Source: Clostridia bacterium
GTDB lineage: Bacteria; Bacillota_A; Clostridia; Christensenellales; Aristaeellaceae
Length of the DNA: 64,000 bases
Direction: 5' to 3'
NCBI GenBank assembly: GCA_025997215.1
Contig: BNUH01000002.1
Span: forward strand, 1-64,000
Part shown: one piece after another, positions 25,809 to 60,859 of the stretch
Layout: the number at the start of each line of letters is the position of its first letter
Numbering within the stretch: the first letter of the stretch is position 1
Translations under genes and position numbers: made by a program
The notes under the pieces: model-generated
Databases searched by the model: none
The model's input: only the letters and a program-made list of their open reading frames with translations
What the model was told of the DNA's origin: nothing

Positions 25809-28367
25809 ATGGGTAATGAATTCAGGCAGCCGGAACCCTTTAAACTGGTCGATGGGATATATTATGTGGGTGTGCAGGATCCCGATTTGCGCGTATTCGA
25901 CATAATTATGTCCACGGAATTTGGCACAACTTACAATGCTTACGTGATCAAAGGCCGCGATCAGATTGCGCTGGCTGAGACCGCGAAAGCCAAATTCACG
26001 GAGGATTACCTGGCGTCACTGCGTCAGGTTGTGGATATCACACAGGTATCCTACCTGATCGTTAGCCACACCGAGCCGGATCACGCGGGCAGCATTGAGG
26101 CGCTGCTGGATATTAATCCCAGCATAACGATCGTGGCGACACCGTGCGCGATCGGTTATCTAAAACACATCGTCAACCGCGACTTCCACTGCCTGGCGGT
26201 CAAGGCGGGTATGACGCTCGGCCTGGGCGGAAAGACGCTCGAATTCTACCCGCTGCCGAATCTGCACTGGCCGGACACCATGTTCACGTATGTTCGGGAG
26301 GATCGAGCGCTGATCACGTGCGATTCGTTTGGTTCGCATTACAGCCATCCCGGGGTGCTGCGTTCGAACGTGACCGACGAGGCTGGCTATCTGCGCGCGA
26401 CTAAGTATTATTTCGACAATATTATCGGGCCGTTCAAGCGTCCGTACATGGTGAACGCGCTGACGGTTGTGGATGCGCTGGCGTTGGACTTCATATTGAC
26501 AGGCCATGGCCCGGTACATGATTCACACATCGATGAGTTGTTAACGCTCTACCGCGACTGGTGCGCCGCGCCCGAATCGGATGGCAGGAAGCGTGTCGCT
26601 ATACCATACGTTAGTGCGTACGGTTACACCCGGGAGTTGGCGAATGAGATAGCGCGCGGCGTGGAATCGGCTGGCGACATATCCGTGGCGGCCTTCGACC
26701 TGGTCGATCAGGATGCCGCCGAAGCCTCCGCAGCAATCGACGCGGCCGACGGCGTGATCTTCGGCACGCCGACGATCCTTGGCGAGGCGCTTGCCCCCAT
26801 ATGGGATCTGGCAACGCGGTTGTATCCCCCTATTCATGGGGGAAAACTGGCCAGCGTGTTCGGCAGTTATGGCTGGAGCGGCGAGGGCGTGCCGCACTTG
26901 ATCGAGCGGCTCAAACAGGTTCGCATGAAGGTGCTGGACGGTTATCGCGTAAGGTTCAAGCCCAACGCCGGAGAGTTGCTGGACGCGTTCGAGTATGGTT
27001 ACAACTTCGGCTGCACGCTTCTGAATAAGGAGAACGATCGCGCCCAAAAGAAGTCGGCGACCAAACAACTAAAATGCCTGGTGTGCGGCGCGCTGATGCC
27101 CGAGGGCACAACCGTTTGTCCGGTGTGCGGCGTCGGGGTGGAGCAATTCATCATCGTCGAAGCGGAGTTAGTTACATTCCACCGCGACACGGGCCGCCGT
27201 TTCATAATTGCCGGGGCAGGCATCGCGGGCGTGAGCGCGGCGGCTGCGATCCGCGAGCGCGACAGCACAGCCAACATCGTTTTGTTGGATGAAGAGGAAT
27301 CCCTGCCGTACAATCGGCCGATGTTAACCAAGAATATGTTCAGCGCGCTTACGGCGGATCAGTTGGCGATTTATGACGAATCGTGGTATGAAGAGCTGCG
27401 TATCACACGGATCGGCGGACAACGGATCGTTGGGCTGGATACCGCCGCCAAGACGATCAAGTTGGAAAGCGGCGCCGCGCTGATGTATGACGCGTGTGTG
27501 CTGGCGTTGGGCGCGTCGAGTTTCATCCCGCCGATATTGGGCGCGGATAAGGCGAATGTGTTCGCGATCCGCACGCTGGGCGACGTGAAGCGGCTGGAGG
27601 CTGCGGCCAAGACCGCCCAACGCGCTGTGATCATCGGCGGCGGCGTGCTGGGCCTGGAAACGGCGTGGGAACTGCGCAAGGTCAAGCTGGATGTGACGGT
27701 AGTAGAAGCCCTGCCGCGTTTGCTGGATCGCAAGGCTGCGCCTGCCGCGTCCGAGATGCTGTCTCAAGCCGTGCGAGACGCTGGGATCGAGCTGCTCATC
27801 GGCGCGAAGGTGGAGTCCATCGCGGGCGGCGAGCGTGTCAGCGGGGTGCAGCTGGCGGATGGACGGTTGATTCCGGCGGATATAGTTATATTCTCAACAG
27901 GGATTAAGCCGAACATTCAAGCGGCCGAGGGTTCGGGTATAACGCTGAATCGTGGTATCGTTGTTGACGAACGCATGGCGACGAGCGCGGCGGATGTATT
28001 CGCGTGCGGGGATTGCGCCATACTCGGCGGCATGCGGTACGGGTTGTGGGCTGAAGCGGCGGCAATGGGCGCTGTGGCTGGCGCGAGTGCGGTTGGCGAC
28101 ACTGCGGCGTACACTCCCGCGTTGTACCCGGTCGCGTTGAACGCGCTGGGCACATCCCTCTACGCGGTCGGCGACACGGGCAGCGATCCATCTAAGTCAT
28201 ACAAGACCGTCGAACTGCGCGACATGGCCAAGCGCACGCTGGCGGTGTACCACTTCCTGGGGCAGCGGCTGGTAGGAGTGACGCTGCTGGGCGAGGTATC
28301 CTCGATGTCCGACGCGCAAGGCTGGGTTGAGGCTGGCGCGGCCTATCCCACGCTGTTCACAAGGTAA
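25809..28367 (+). CDS. flavodiiron protein fused to rubredoxin and NADH:rubredoxin reductase (class F type)
   Basis: 852 residues. Residues 1-250 are the metallo-beta-lactamase-like diiron domain with ligands H87, E89, D91, H92 (HTEPDH), H153, D172 and H233. Residues ~262-400 are a flavodoxin domain for FMN. A short rubredoxin domain carries C423, C426, C437, C440. From ~464 to the end it is a FAD/NAD reductase (IIAGAGIAG; later AVIIGGGVLGLE and a FACGDCA motif). This is the clostridial class F layout: NADH electrons pass FAD, rubredoxin, FMN and diiron to reduce O2 or NO, in one chain. A cytoplasmic oxygen-defence enzyme for an anaerobe. GGAGG lies 6 nt before the ATG. Confidence 0.94.
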   Translation: MGNEFRQPEPFKLVDGIYYVGVQDPDLRVFDIIMSTEFGTTYNAYVIKGRDQIALAETAKAKFTEDYLASLRQVVDITQVSYLIVSHTEPDHAGSIEALLDINPSITIVATPCAIGYLKHIVNRDFHCLAVKAGMTLGLGGKTLEFYPLPNLHWPDTMFTYVREDRALITCDSFGSHYSHPGVLRSNVTDEAGYLRATKYYFDNIIGPFKRPYMVNALTVVDALALDFILTGHGPVHDSHIDELLTLYRDWCAAPESDGRKRVAIPYVSAYGYTRELANEIARGVESAGDISVAAFDLVDQDAAEASAAIDAADGVIFGTPTILGEALAPIWDLATRLYPPIHGGKLASVFGSYGWSGEGVPHLIERLKQVRMKVLDGYRVRFKPNAGELLDAFEYGYNFGCTLLNKENDRAQKKSATKQLKCLVCGALMPEGTTVCPVCGVGVEQFIIVEAELVTFHRDTGRRFIIAGAGIAGVSAAAAIRERDSTANIVLLDEEESLPYNRPMLTKNMFSALTADQLAIYDESWYEELRITRIGGQRIVGLDTAAKTIKLESGAALMYDACVLALGASSFIPPILGADKANVFAIRTLGDVKRLEAAAKTAQRAVIIGGGVLGLETAWELRKVKLDVTVVEALPRLLDRKAAPAASEMLSQAVRDAGIELLIGAKVESIAGGERVSGVQLADGRLIPADIVIFSTGIKPNIQAAEGSGITLNRGIVVDERMATSAADVFACGDCAILGGMRYGLWAEAAAMGAVAGASAVGDTAAYTPALYPVALNALGTSLYAVGDTGSDPSKSYKTVELRDMAKRTLAVYHFLGQRLVGVTLLGEVSSMSDAQGWVEAGAAYPTLFTR

Positions 28368-28402: not shown

Positions 28403-29029
28403 CCGCCTGCGGGCGGGACTGCCCCAACTGCGGTTGGGGACTTGTTACTTTTCCCGTCCGTGGGAAAAGTAACCAAAAGGACGGCCAAAGAGGGAGGGCA
28501 CTGTGCCCTCCCTCTCTGGACTCACCCTCCTCAATGTCGTCCCCGCTCATAGGTCTATGACCAACGTTCCGATTGATTTACAGTCACAGCATTGGAGGGT
28601 TCTCATGGCTTCGCGGCGAGGTGCACGAATTGGCGGAGTTTCACGGCAGCATACGCCGGCGGCTCTTTATCATCCAGCAAGTCATAAACAATTATGGAAC
28701 AATAACAGCCTCGCGCTACCAGCGTTAGATAACAACTATAAAACCATAACAGTATCCCGTCAGCAGCTATAGACCATGTGATCTAGAACGTAAACAATAT
28801 GATGCCAAGCCCATTGCATACTGTGCTACTCTGGATGGTGTATGTTTGGTCTCTTGCAGAAGGTCAAAATGGCTGGGGAGAGGTGTCCAGAGGAGAGGGG
28901 GCGCCATAGCGCCCCTCTCCTTTGGCCGTCCTTTTGGTTACTTTTCCCACGGACGGGAAAAGTAACAAGTCCCCAACCGCAGTTGGGGCAATCCCCTCCG
29001 CAGAGGACGAACCAATCCCCCGCAGGCGG
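28403..29029 (+). repeat. composite palindromic element, copy A
   Basis: 627 bp. Two inverted arms flank a ~370-bp core. Each arm holds the same hairpin series: a GC-rich tip (CCGCCTGCGGGCGG), CCCCAACTGCGGTTGGGG, a 12-bp stem GTTACTTTTCCC/GGGAAAAGTAAC, GGACGGCCAAAG, and a variable purine/pyrimidine hairpin. Left arm is 28403-28519, right arm is 28886-29029 with a ~22-nt extra segment near its tip. The core shares long blocks with copy B, e.g. CAATGTCGTCCCCGCTCAT and TAAACAATATGATGC. No transposase or plausible gene is inside. I read it as a non-autonomous mobile or RNA-structured repeat. Confidence 0.85.
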
Positions 29030-29380: not shown

Positions 29381-29842
29381 TTACGCTTCCTGGGATGCCG
29401 CCTCAGTCTCCTTCTCAGCGTCGTCGGCCTGAACCGCCTCGCTCACCACGCGACGGATCAGACTCTCAAGCTGATCAGGCGTAACGCGCAGCGGCGATCC
29501 CGCCTTCAGTTCTCCGCGCGCGACGCGGCCCAGCCGACGCACCGTATCGGTGTCTAGGCTGCCAGCGCTCAGCGCGCGCGTGCCGTCGCCCAGCACCGGG
29601 GTGACGTACATGGCGGGCAGCTCGGCGCGTCCCAGCAGCTCGTCCGATGTGATCCCGAAAAGCCTCGACAGCTTGTCGATCTTCTCGATGCTCGGCTCGC
29701 TGCGCCCGGATTCCCACTTGCCAACGCCCTGCTGAGAGATACCCATTTCCGCGCCCAGCGCGGCCTGGGACAAACCTGTGCGCGTGCGAAGTTCCACTAA
29801 CCGCCGCGCGAACGCCGACCTATCATATTCGTTCGACATCAT
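29381..29842 (-). CDS. XRE-family transcriptional regulator
   Basis: 153 residues. An N-terminal Cro/C1 helix-turn-helix (residues ~11-66: [20 protein letters not shown], then [17 protein letters not shown] and [13 protein letters not shown]) is followed by an acidic C-terminal part of unknown role. It is divergent from rpmH, in the place where dnaA often lies in Firmicutes. It may control itself. Confidence 0.85.
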
Positions 29843-46349: not shown

Positions 46350-47591
46350 ATGCATGAATTTGGATTAGTCGGCGCGAAATTGGGCCACAGCCATTCGCCG
46401 CGCATCCACCGTGCGTTGGGGAATTATCGTTATGAATTAATAGAGGTTGACCGCGCAGGACTGGATGAGCTGCTGACCAGGCGGCAATTCAAGGGCTTAA
46501 ACGTTACGATTCCATACAAGGTGGATGCGATGGGTTACTGTGATGCGCTGACGGATGAAGCGCATGCAGTGGGCAGCGTCAACACGCTGACGTTTGATGA
46601 TCAGCATCGGCTGGTTGGGCACAACACCGATTTATATGGATTTGAGACGCTGGCACGGAGCGCCGGCATCACAATGTCCAACCGGAAGGTGTTGATACTG
46701 GGCAGCGGCGGTTCATCAAGGACGGTGACGGAGGCAGCGCGTCGAGCTGGCGCACGCGAGATAGTTGTCGTTTCACGCGGCGGGCCTGTCGATTATGCGG
46801 CATCCATAATATTGCATAAAAATGCGGAAATTATCGTCAACACCACACCCGTTGGGATGTATCCTAACAACGGTATTGCGCCTGTATCTTTGGAGGATTA
46901 CCCACAATGTGTTGGCGTGATCGATTTGGTGTACAACCCGCTGAAAACAGCGCTGATACTCGACGCTATGGATCGTAGCATCACACACGCCGACGGACTG
47001 ACGATGCTTGTTGCTCAAGGGTTGCGCGCTGCAGAATTATTCACTGGTTCGCATATTGATACAGAACGTATTGCCCAAATTGAAACGGATATGCGCCACG
47101 AATTGTCAAATGTTACCATTATCGGCATGCCCGGCAGCGGAAAATCCGTTATCGGCCGCACATTAGCGGAACGATTCGCGCGCCCGTTTGTCGATTTGGA
47201 TGAGGAGATTGAGAGACAGGCTGGCCGCACGATCCCCGACATATTTCGCGACGACGGCGAGGCGGTTTTTCGCGCGATTGAACGTGAAACCGCAGCGGCG
47301 ATCGGCAAGCGCGGCGGCCAAATCATCGCGACGGGCGGCGGAGCGCCGATCGATCGGCGCAATGTTGATGCGTTTAGGCAGAACGGCTGGCTGCTATGGA
47401 TCCGCAGGCCTCTGGAGTCGCTCGCGCGATCAGGGCGGCCGTTGTCGTCCGAGCCGGACGCTCTACATGCGATGGGAAGCGTCCGTTTGCCGATATATCA
47501 ACGTGTGAGCGACGCCGCGATCGATAACGACGGATCGTTGGAGCAGACCATCCTACGTGCGATAGACGTGTTATCAAGTTGGCTGGAATAA
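46350..47591 (+). CDS. aroE-aroK: bifunctional shikimate dehydrogenase-shikimate kinase
   Basis: 413 residues. Residues 1-~248 are AroE: SHSPRIH, NVTIPYK with catalytic K57, HNTD with D93, and a NADP loop ILGSGGSSR. Residues ~250-413 are AroK: Walker A GMPGSGKS (259-266), DLDEEIERQAG, FRAIERE and ATGGGAP. The two steps 3-dehydroshikimate to shikimate and shikimate to shikimate-3-phosphate are joined in one chain, 7 nt after pheA. Confidence 0.95.
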   Translation: MHEFGLVGAKLGHSHSPRIHRALGNYRYELIEVDRAGLDELLTRRQFKGLNVTIPYKVDAMGYCDALTDEAHAVGSVNTLTFDDQHRLVGHNTDLYGFETLARSAGITMSNRKVLILGSGGSSRTVTEAARRAGAREIVVVSRGGPVDYAASIILHKNAEIIVNTTPVGMYPNNGIAPVSLEDYPQCVGVIDLVYNPLKTALILDAMDRSITHADGLTMLVAQGLRAAELFTGSHIDTERIAQIETDMRHELSNVTIIGMPGSGKSVIGRTLAERFARPFVDLDEEIERQAGRTIPDIFRDDGEAVFRAIERETAAAIGKRGGQIIATGGGAPIDRRNVDAFRQNGWLLWIRRPLESLARSGRPLSSEPDALHAMGSVRLPIYQRVSDAAIDNDGSLEQTILRAIDVLSSWLE

Positions 47592-58907: not shown

Positions 58908-59402
58908 TTATGCCGACCTATATTTGGCGAGTATGCCGGGGATTTCATCGGACTTAAGCGAACCGTAGACCTCTTCGTCGATCATCATGACCGGGGCGAG
59001 ACCGCACGCGCCCAGGCACCGCGTGGCATTGAGCGTGAAGCGGCCGTCGTCGGTCGTGTGGCCGACGCTGACGCTCAATTCCTGGGATAATCTGTCTAGA
59101 ATCTTCTGAGCGCCGCGCACGTAGCATGCCGTACCCAGGCACAGGCCGATGATGTGTTCGCCGCGCGGTTCCAGCGCGAACTGGGAGTAGAATGTCGAAA
59201 CGCCGTACACCTCGGTGAGGGGGACGTTGAGGCCCTTGGCTATCTCGACCTGTACGTCCTGTGGCACATAGCCGAAGATAGACTGTGCCTCCTGCAGTAC
59301 GGGCATGAGCGCGCCGCGTTCGCCGCGGTGACGCGCTATGGATTCCGCTAACTGGCTGAACTTGTCAGTCTGGGCGGATGATTTGGTTTGGGTTTCCGAC
59401 AT
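58908..59402 (-). CDS. hydC: NuoE-like hydrogenase subunit HydC
   Basis: 164 residues from ATG 59402 (AGGAGG upstream). LMPVLQEAQSIFGYVPQDVQ, STFYSQFALEPRG, then the [2Fe-2S] ligands CLGTACYVRG and RCLGACGLAP. It carries electrons with HydB. First gene of the hydC-fdx-hydB-hydA operon. Confidence 0.95.
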   Translation of the reverse strand: MSETQTKSSAQTDKFSQLAESIARHRGERGALMPVLQEAQSIFGYVPQDVQVEIAKGLNVPLTEVYGVSTFYSQFALEPRGEHIIGLCLGTACYVRGAQKILDRLSQELSVSVGHTTDDGRFTLNATRCLGACGLAPVMMIDEEVYGSLKSDEIPGILAKYRSA

Positions 59403-59478
59403 AACAGCGGGATCCCTCCTATTATTAAGGATGGCGCGGCGGCAAACCGAATAATATCGGCCCGCACACAGCGTTCCG

Positions 59479-59507
59479 ATTATAGCATAGATTTCTGTGG
59501 TATGCAA
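59479..59507 (-). promoter_or_regulatory. hydrogenase operon promoter
   Basis: Minus strand: TTGCAT (59502-59507), 17-nt spacer, TATAAT (59479-59484) with extended -10 TGC. The leader is about 70 nt. Element B begins 34 nt further upstream. Confidence 0.78.
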
Positions 59508-59540
59508 ACCCTCTTACTCGCTGTCGCGGGGCGGAGCGCG

Positions 59541-60198
59541 CCGCCTGCGGGCGGGGTTGCCCCAACTGCGGTTGGGGACTTGTTACTTTTCCCGTCCGTG
59601 GGAAAAGTAACCAAAAGGACGGCCAAAGGAGAGAGGCGCTCTGGCGCCCTCTCTCCTCTGGACACCTCTCTCCAGCCATGTTGCACCTGCTGCAAGGGGC
59701 CAAACGTACGCTATCCATAGTAGCACAGCATTGCAGGTCTTTAGCATCATATTGTTTACCTGAAATCCTACATGATCTAAAGCTGGCGGCGGGAGACTGT
59801 TACTGTTTCATAGTTGTTGATGGCGGGATGATCTAAAGCTGGTGGCGGGAGACTATTATGATTCAGTATTGTTTATGTACATTATTAGATGATCCGAGAT
59901 TAGTAGCAAGGGCGTGTTATGATTTTATAATGATAATGACCACCCTCGCCAATGCGACTACCTCGCCGCGATGCCTCGATAACCTTGCAAGACAGTGCAT
60001 GTAAATCAATCGTAACGTTGGTCATAGACCAATGAGCGGGGACGACATTGAGGAGGGAGAGTCCAGAGAGGGAGGGCACAGTGCCCTCACTCTTTGGCCG
60101 TCCTTTTGGTTACTTTTCCCACGGACGGGAAAAGTAACAAGTTCCCAACCGCAGTTGGGGCAATCCCTCCGTAGAGGACGAACCAAACCCCCCGCAGG
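59541..60198 (-). repeat. composite palindromic element, copy B
   Basis: 658 bp, homologous to copy A but in reverse orientation. Arms: 59541-59665 and 60060-60198, each with the same hairpin series. Its core differs by a tandem duplication of a ~57-bp unit (ATGATCTAAAGCTGG(C/T)GGCGGGAGACT at 59771 and 59828). The arm tip at 60194 has lost its last GG of GCAGGCGG. No gene inside. It fills the gap between hydC and the next operon. Confidence 0.85.
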
Positions 60199-60250: not shown

Positions 60251-60859
60251 ATGAAACGCCTATCCAATTCAGAGGATTTTGTCGAAGAGCTTGACGGCCG
60301 CGGCAGAAAACGTTATCGTTATGTCGGGCGAATGTTCGATGTCCGTTGGCTCGGTGGCAGAGGTGCCGTGCTGCCGAGGCTGTGGATGCTGGCGGCGCTG
60401 GCGGCGGCGATTTTTATAATGATCGGCGTGCTGCCCATACCAGGGCTGGATAAGCGGATCTGGTTCATGATACCATACATAGTTTCGGGCTGGCCGACAG
60501 CTATGCTGGCCACGGACGTGTATAAGATTACCGCGTACAAGCCTCCCATCACGCGGATGGATGTTCAGCGCGGGGCAGGGCGGTTGGGGTTCGACGCGGT
60601 ATTCGGCGGGATATGCGCGGTGGTTGCGACGCTGGGTCAATTGGTTACGATCGTGGGATTGTTGTTGAATCATAACGGCATCGTTGCGCACGAATTCATA
60701 CTACTGGCGTTCGCGGCCGCGGATTGTATAATATTTGAGGGCACACGCAGGTTATCCAGGCGTGTTGGAACGGTTGAGATTGTGGATGGCAGCGGTGAAC
60801 GCTGTGAACCACCGCTCCGGCTTGACGGCGGGGCGGGATATAAAGGGGAGGGTATGTAA
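60251..60859 (+). CDS. membrane protein of unknown function, leader of opp-type operon
   Basis: 202 residues, about four membrane helices (~45-65, 72-92, 113-133, 140-160), basic N-terminus and a polar C-terminal tail. I do not recognise the family. Its last base is shared with the ATG of the binding-protein gene, so the two are coupled. There is no ribosome site before ATG 60251; ATG 60333 is an alternative. Confidence 0.65.
   Translation: MKRLSNSEDFVEELDGRGRKRYRYVGRMFDVRWLGGRGAVLPRLWMLAALAAAIFIMIGVLPIPGLDKRIWFMIPYIVSGWPTAMLATDVYKITAYKPPITRMDVQRGAGRLGFDAVFGGICAVVATLGQLVTIVGLLLNHNGIVAHEFILLAFAAADCIIFEGTRRLSRRVGTVEIVDGSGERCEPPLRLDGGAGYKGEGM

Follow-up and report, generated by a model that had tools for sequence, protein, structure and literature searches.

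Classical bacterial MITEs and the BOX, RUP and Correia elements are small, gene-free sequences with inverted ends or hairpins, and a target-site duplication is usual, though not universal, for MITEs. Folded DNA ends are also known to guide a transposase to its element; the cases described in three papers involve simple hairpins and one enzyme family (PMC6006769, PMC3116915, PMC3119063). A REPIN is a doublet of REP sequences that forms a hairpin (PMC3116915). The canonical REP foot is GT[AG]G, and atypical feet have also been described (PMC6006769). The SMR-A element has inverted terminal repeats that are reported to be unrelated to known transposons, and its mode of movement is given as unknown (PMC3119063). 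Here, we compare with these systems two elements found in the window, that is, the whole stretch of 64,000 nucleotides that was analysed, and their relatives in other genomes. Genomes are referred to by G numbers and loci by L numbers.

Architecture of the two copies in the window

Element A occupies positions 28403-29029, and element B lies in the reverse orientation at 59541-60198. Both consist of inverted arms around a core of about 370-400 bp, and neither contains known genes. The left arm of A (28403..28520, plus strand) is made up of hairpins h1 (28403-28416), h2 (28422-28439) and h3 (28444-28473), a linker with one strand of the S2 helix (28474-28484), and hairpin h4 (28485-28519). Within it, the conserved h3 unit (28444..28484, plus strand) has a stem, S1, formed by 28444-28455 with 28462-28473, and a predicted pseudoknot helix, S2, in which the loop CCGT (28458-28461) would pair with the flank ACGG (28481-28484, plus strand) in the register seen across the family. 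The gene-free core of about 366 bp (28521..28886, no strand assigned) is followed by the inverted right arm (28887..29029, minus strand), with h4 at 28887-28925, the linker and S2 strand at 28926-28936, h3 at 28937-28966 and h2 at 28971-28988; the outer part of this arm (minus strand) has an extra hairpin-like stretch at 28995-29006 and a tip that extends to 29029. In B, the left arm (59541..59661, plus strand) carries h3 at 59582-59611 and h4 at 59623-59661, and the gene-free core (59662..60062, no strand assigned) contains a 31-nt unit twice, at 59772 and 59828 (spacing 56). The inverted right arm of B (60063..60198, minus strand) has h4 at 60063-60097, linker and S2 strand at 60098-60108 and h3 at 60109-60138, with the extra stretch at 60166-60177 and the tip to 60198 in its outer part (minus strand).

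The ungapped inverted repeat of A (28407-28512 with 28898-29003) is 106 nt long and 89% complementary, with a separation of 385 nt, while that of B (59550-59628 with 60092-60170) is 79 nt long and 96% complementary, with a separation of 463 nt. The window contains four exact copies of the 41-mer GTTACTTTTCCCGTCCGTGGGAAAAGTAACCAAAAGGACGG, arranged in two inverted pairs, and none appeared in 100 shuffles; a looser h3 pattern recovered the same four sites (0 in 20 shuffles). When reverse-complemented, B aligns with A over its full length, with common core blocks plus indels.

The four arms have predicted single-stranded DNA folds of −36 to −44 kcal/mol, compared to shuffled means of −21 to −25 (z = −7.5, −6.1, −6.5 and −5.4; 0 of 200 shuffles equally good for each arm). 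Hairpins h2, h3 and h4 are predicted in all four arms, and h1 is predicted as a separate hairpin only in the left arm of each element; the right-arm tips of A and B pair with the extra stretch instead. An earlier note on this DNA had described inverted arms of ~120-140 bp, each with four hairpins, around a gene-free core, and a reversed second copy sharing arms and core blocks. The second copy is as described, and the arms are indeed inverted around a gene-free core and measure about 118-143 nt with their outer hairpins, but the separate h1 holds for the left arms only. The inverted arms would also allow the element to fold from end to end, as proposed there, but what is conserved is the local fold of h3, and the left and right h3 of one element are often unlike.

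No Pfam domain was found in the three ORFs of at least 80 aa that overlap A, nor in the ORF at 59388-59720 across the left end of B (one tested of two such ORFs). No Rfam 15 family matched the window at gathering score, and the lax threshold gave weak sub-threshold matches only, mainly to miRNA families. The description of the element as transposase-free and of greater complexity than a simple REP or MITE is supported. One arm translation did match a hypothetical protein, AGMMS49992_10360 (Clostridia bacterium), at 74% identity over 46% of the query, in line with the earlier note, and the elements could account for spurious hypothetical proteins translated from such arms, of which this is the one example seen.

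Element A sits between the end of an 852-aa ORF (25809-28367) and an opposite-strand ORF with an HTH domain (29381-29842). The neighbours of B are an ORF with a thioredoxin-like [2Fe-2S] ferredoxin domain (58908-59507, minus strand) and one without a Pfam match (60251-60859, plus strand); a protein search with the ORF beside B returned itself alone. A host among the Clostridia is likely. The 852-aa ORF is a single frame that combines a flavodiiron-type with an NADH oxidoreductase (NirB-like) half, and each of the matches listed from the sampled family covers one of the two halves. Elsewhere in the window, shikimate dehydrogenase and shikimate kinase domains lie within one ORF (46350-47591).

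Pairing and covariation in the h3 hairpin

The sequence common to the window arms and other genomes is h3, which reads NNNACTTTT-stem-loop-AAAAGTNNN, then CAAAAG. It consists of a near-fixed ACTTTT/AAAAGT stem and the A-rich linker CAAAAG, followed by 3-4 nt complementary to its own loop. The arms of the different groups have h3 and the habit of chaining hairpins in common, and the sequences of h1, h2 and h4 vary by group. From 387 raw matches, 138 without a CAAA foot were removed (many of them the same palindrome on the opposite strand), and 72 distinct hairpins were obtained. In these, stem positions 1-3 and 9-12 vary together, while ACTTTT/AAAAGT is nearly invariant, with CAAA next. The loop shares a complementary word of at least 4 nt with the bases after the linker in 48 of the 72 hairpins, compared to a permuted mean of 11.5 and a maximum of 22 (2000 permutations).

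A gapless alignment (A1) was made of 71 distinct h3 units of core length 28, from 208 matches (loci L001-L196 and the window), pre-filtered at ≥10 of 12 stem pairs. Over its 15 pairs (1065 cells), 96.4% of cells were paired, compared to 78.4% in shuffled alignments; both sides had changed in 195 cells, compared to 57.8 (sd 9.4), and the covariation score was 0.457, compared to 0.126. Double-sided changes occurred in 11 of the 15 pairs. None of 500 shuffles matched the pairing percentage, the number of double-change pairs or cells, or the score, and two matched the number of pair types; sliding the alignment by 1-3 columns reduced pairing to 42-53%. The figures for S1 (98.5% of cells paired; 835 Watson-Crick, 4 G.T and 13 other among 852 cells) are conditioned by the fact that the units had passed the stem-pair filter. 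In S2, 88.3% of cells were paired, and its four columns showed 206 Watson-Crick pairs in 284 cells (permuted mean 111, maximum 135; 5000 permutations), with 3 G.T pairs, compared to 27 when permuted. The patterns with which the h3 loci were found prescribe a large part of the stem; S2 was never a selection criterion. The shuffles leave the kinship among h3 units in place.

The analysis was repeated without the filter, fixing only ACTTTT, AAAAGT and CAAA (274 matches, 71 distinct; 1000 shuffles). Watson-Crick pairs made up 211 of 213 cells at stem positions 1-3 (shuffled mean 155, maximum 169), 199 of 213 at positions 10-12 (mean 104, maximum 126) and 185 of 213 in S2 (mean 92, maximum 107). 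Hairpins of other lengths (33 distinct), which were not used to set the register, had an S2 run of at least 3 in 17 cases, including that of the window, compared to a permuted mean of 4.7 and a maximum of 12 (5000 permutations); registers shifted by 1-2 gave 6, 0, 3 and 6. The window h3 (one sequence, in four copies) has the 4-bp S2 of CCGT with ACGG, and the Cupriavidus h3 (L069) has a 3-bp S2. In P. caribensis, a 5-bp S2 (GCCGC with GCGGC) is one place off register, as is the 3-bp S2 of a second Paraburkholderia h3 type. S2 is absent in the TCTTGA-type hairpins and in G886. It starts at flank position 7 in hairpins with core lengths of 25 and 29, mostly at 8 for 30, and at 8, 9 and 10 for 31, 32 and 34, respectively, a tendency towards a later start in longer hairpins that agrees with a linker lying alongside the stem.

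The scarcity of G.T pairs in the Clostridia h3 points to DNA as the folded form. On the other hand, many Burkholderiaceae h3 contain GTCAC..GTAAC, that is, a C.A mismatch at one stem position (G.T on the other strand), which counts against a strict pairing demand on both strands. When linker and stem were read as a mirror repeat or triplex, the mean mirror run was 5.6, compared to 4.3 when permuted (maximum 4.8), a difference confounded by the conserved A-run. An H-type pseudoknot is expected to have both a covarying stem and a covarying loop-to-flank helix, and both are present in h3, though not in every subgroup. Judged from these sequence patterns, the conserved hairpin seems to fold into an H-type DNA pseudoknot.

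Distribution, insertion sites and cores

A contig scan with GTTACTTTTCCCN{4,12}GGGAAAAGTAACCAAAAG returned 67 stretches (L006-L072), of which 65 were Oscillospiraceae, Oscillibacter, Clostridiales or Bacillota by title, one was from Cupriavidus (L069) and one from an uncultured bacterium (L070); a looser h3 form was seen in five viral contigs. Convergent inverted h3 pairs with unrelated cores occurred in many of the fetched loci, including many Oscillospiraceae MAGs and Burkholderiaceae. A larger set contained 76 two-armed stretches, some of which cover two elements or contain cargo. Comparison of the cores of the 74 stretches that were long enough gave groups of 44 (rabbit and other gut MAGs), 17 (the G001 type), 2, 2 and 2 (one of which is the window pair), plus 7 singles. 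Cores of the rabbit-gut group (L039:3122-3306 and similar) carry a ~60-bp unit with CTCCGTTCCACTACGCAATTG, both direct and inverted.

The exact h3 pattern was present in at least 12 of 300 genomes in the family of G001, at least 18 of 42 species in its genus and at least 13 of 150 Burkholderiaceae, the MAGs being incomplete. It was found in 0 of 13 genomes in the family of G584 (LysS 65% identical to that of the window) and 0 of 4 in the genus of G671 (chosen because it matches the 852-aa protein in part, at 70%); the best identity of the window LysS across 341 sampled Clostridia genomes was 66%. The element is widespread, as the earlier note had suggested, and its copy number varies across species. 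It also remains nameless in text searches: no named element was found by topic, and, to judge from their titles, papers in which the motif words are printed seem unrelated (the searches did not extend to subscription journals, ISfinder or preprints).

G1036, a rabbit gut MAG of 4.1 Mb, contained 86 h3 in 393 kb, making up 28 two-armed elements and 30 single h3, a density biased upward because the contigs chosen were known to hold matches. In a control of 259 kb, 61 h3 were found, compared to 0 in five shuffles. Such elements (28 × ~0.65 kb in 393 kb, in this biased sample) could amount to a few per cent of the sequence in certain gut MAGs. The most alike pair among the 28 is 88.6% identical, which argues that there was no recent burst in G1036; in G001, copies at different sites are up to 96% alike. 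G886 had 12 exact h3 matches. A separate one-hairpin type, NNNTACTTTTTCTTGAAAGAAAAAGTANNN and near variants with changing feet, accounts for 20 of the 30 single h3 of G1036 (loci L296-L315). A single h3-like hairpin was also seen at L149:1340-1560 and L164:1300-1540, where it comes after a TTGACA..TACTAAAAT resembling a promoter and an intergenic stretch that is conserved; this may be a gene for a small RNA.

Among plasmids and phages, the window element had no match; nor did the L236 element among plasmids or the L041 element among phages. The Paraburkholderia element matched 24 of 72,556 plasmid records, mainly Paraburkholderia, Burkholderia and Caballeronia replicons, with three records from Pasteurella and one from Aeromonas; a single record among those listed had as many as 32 matching places. 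No feature was annotated beneath 15 listed plasmid matches, in records that were nearly unannotated where looked at.

Several sites could be compared between genomes. L014 and L052 have flanks 95-97% alike around an element region of 754 and 596 bp, respectively, with different cores and one different arm. In L026, L030 and L070, the flanks are about 89-96% alike and the core and right arm differ; the cores of these three share a conserved ORF starting MTALMEILYCYAQEHEVEALL (alignment, three species). L161 is occupied where L014 and L052 are not, and its entire spacer differs as well. Between aligned flanks, G886 has 723 bp with an element where G848 has 119 bp and none. The empty sites called for in the earlier note are thus represented by one orthologous element-free site in another family, but it is inexact, as the spacer differs too. 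At the L320 site, many IS256 matches were found beside the element.

In Paraburkholderia, a site between genes for an AraC-type regulator and a class-III aminotransferase had its left flank in 65 of 65 genomes, and the element matched in all 30 fetched loci, with both h3 in 22, one in 7 and none in 1 (where the locus stops at the contig end). The core at this site is either short or a 2-3.9 kb insert, and other species have the short core only. Type VI secretion genes lie between the arms in some copies (Pfam PAAR in L226 and Tae4 in L227 and L230); look-alikes of PAAR and Tae4, judged by their first residues only, occur elsewhere in L226-L228 and L230. The L229 core contains Transposase_mut and rve genes (Pfam), and a G886 copy (L235) has an IS110-type gene inside. 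The idea that the longer copies carry the element's own transposase was considered and rejected; the contents seen are cargo or secondary insertions. In two comparisons (L243 with L231, and L328 with L322), the core was better matched when inverted. Two sites of P. caribensis MWAP64 were compared with their counterparts in further strains or species, and both sides carried the element in 6 of 6 comparisons. Together with the 30 of 30 loci above, this indicates long residence rather than movement.

Alternative explanations and relation to known elements

With a probability of roughly one half, we favor the reading that A and B are old members of a non-autonomous family whose folded ends are recognized by an enzyme acting in trans, and whose cores are reshuffled through recombination between the arms. 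According to this reading, the arms would turn single-stranded or extrude as cruciforms, and the putative enzyme, supplied in trans, would recognize the folded h3 at both ends and copy or move the element without making a target duplication. Recombination between inverted arms would then exchange or invert the core.

The elements might instead be REPIN-like, a Y1 (RAYT/IS200) transposase acting on them in trans. In that case, h3 would be an unusual REP, and its conserved 5′ foot CTTTTG (on the opposite strand) would serve as the guide. The two inverted palindromic units, the conserved foot beside the hairpin and the lack of a target duplication agree with this, and G886, with its exact h3 matches, has two Y1 matches (E = 2.1e-44 and 2.3e-5), and G1037 has a partial one. 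However, in the genus of G001, where the MAGs are incomplete, the Y1_Tnp domain was found in 5 of 18 carriers and 11 of 24 non-carriers. Among ten chosen genomes, it was missing in six, all of them carriers (G1036, G001, G035, G296, G822 and G823), present in G886, G848 and G869, and partial in G1037. The canonical GT[AG]G foot is also absent 5′ of the hairpin, where CTGG, GGCG, GGGC and ACTT are frequent (TTTG on the other strand), although atypical feet are among those described (PMC6006769). We rejected Y1 in trans as the main reading, since the domain fails to track the elements in the genus tested, G886 being an exception elsewhere, and consider it quite unlikely. An ordinary MITE of some DDE transposon, its long terminal inverted repeats cut in trans, would fit the inverted ends and the h3-to-h3 span, which is 420-640 bp in 55 of 78 pairs. 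Against this, the most conserved part lies ~50-60 nt inside, and the tips differ in their sequence and in how many hairpins they have; to our knowledge, covarying hairpins are not expected of DDE ends. Among the 28 elements of G1036, 27 were usable for detecting target duplications, and none was found beyond chance, direct repeats being no longer than in shuffled pairings. Neither an autonomous, transposase-bearing relative with these arms nor an IS605-type gene with these ends was recognized among the fetched loci inspected. The trans-acting transposase with similar ends that the earlier note had envisaged was thus not found, and a MITE origin appears improbable to us.

That the elements are immobile, resident DNA or RNA, kept at intergenic sites for a role in chromosome structure or expression and spread by recombination, is unlikely. 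A-rich-linker pseudoknots are common in RNA, several species share sites, and one site is occupied throughout the fetched loci of a genus; the 28 elements in one MAG, the patchy species distribution and the scarcity of G.T pairs speak against it, as does the lack of a clear gene-orientation preference (26 elements, rough gene calls). The covariation could also have arisen through quasipalindrome correction, in which template switching makes one arm of a hairpin a copy of its partner; the hairpin would then be an unselected product of mutation. Near-perfect stems with little wobble are what such copying would leave, but ACTTTT/AAAAGT and CAAA are near-fixed across Clostridia and Burkholderiaceae, and copying of arms alone does not give a loop-flank complementarity that changes in sequence at one register. 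We regard this explanation as very improbable.

Starting from the favored reading of trans-recognized folded ends, a bolder version can be put forward tentatively, as a possibility well short of even odds. The elements would represent a mobile DNA class spanning two or more bacterial phyla. An enzyme outside both the Y1/HUH IS200-type and the known DDE transposases would read their ends as a DNA pseudoknot whose linker lies against the stem, and the inverted arms would serve as docking sites at which the content between them, for example a type VI effector cassette, is exchanged. A DNA hairpin that is pseudoknotted, maintained through compensatory changes and common to Clostridia and Burkholderiaceae would point to an unknown DNA-binding activity.

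Compared to the classical MITEs, BOX, RUP and Correia elements, the present elements have a structured motif conserved inside variable tips. Like MITEs, they have terminal inverted repeats and no transposase gene, but the target-site duplication is lacking in G1036. PATEs and IS200-IS605 ends resemble them in having palindromes near the ends, no target duplication and ends likely read as a folded single strand; PATEs, however, are described as lacking inverted terminal repeats, whereas here the arms are inverted repeats (PMC3119063, PMC6006769). SMR-A of Haloquadratum likewise has inverted terminal repeats and no target duplication, and is too short to encode a transposase, but it is haloarchaeal with near-identical copies, whereas ours are bacterial and divergent (at most 88.6% alike in G1036, 96% in G001), with strings of hairpins and one conserved motif (PMC3119063). 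With REPINs, they share two inverted palindromic units around a spacer (an inverted doublet in 76 stretches), intergenic location, many copies, compensatory changes and the lack of an internal transposase (PMC3116915). They differ in their arms of ~120-290 nt with several hairpins, the larger h3-to-h3 distance, the predicted loop-flank pseudoknot, the non-canonical foot and a Y1 gene that does not track them in the genus tested, G886 with its two Y1 matches being an exception. The elements work like a large REPIN or SMR-A, yet do not conform to the definitions of REPIN, PATE or SMR-A; in kind, they are non-autonomous inverted-end elements. What seems to be new here is an h3 that, judging from its covarying stem and loop-flank pairs, would act as a DNA pseudoknot.
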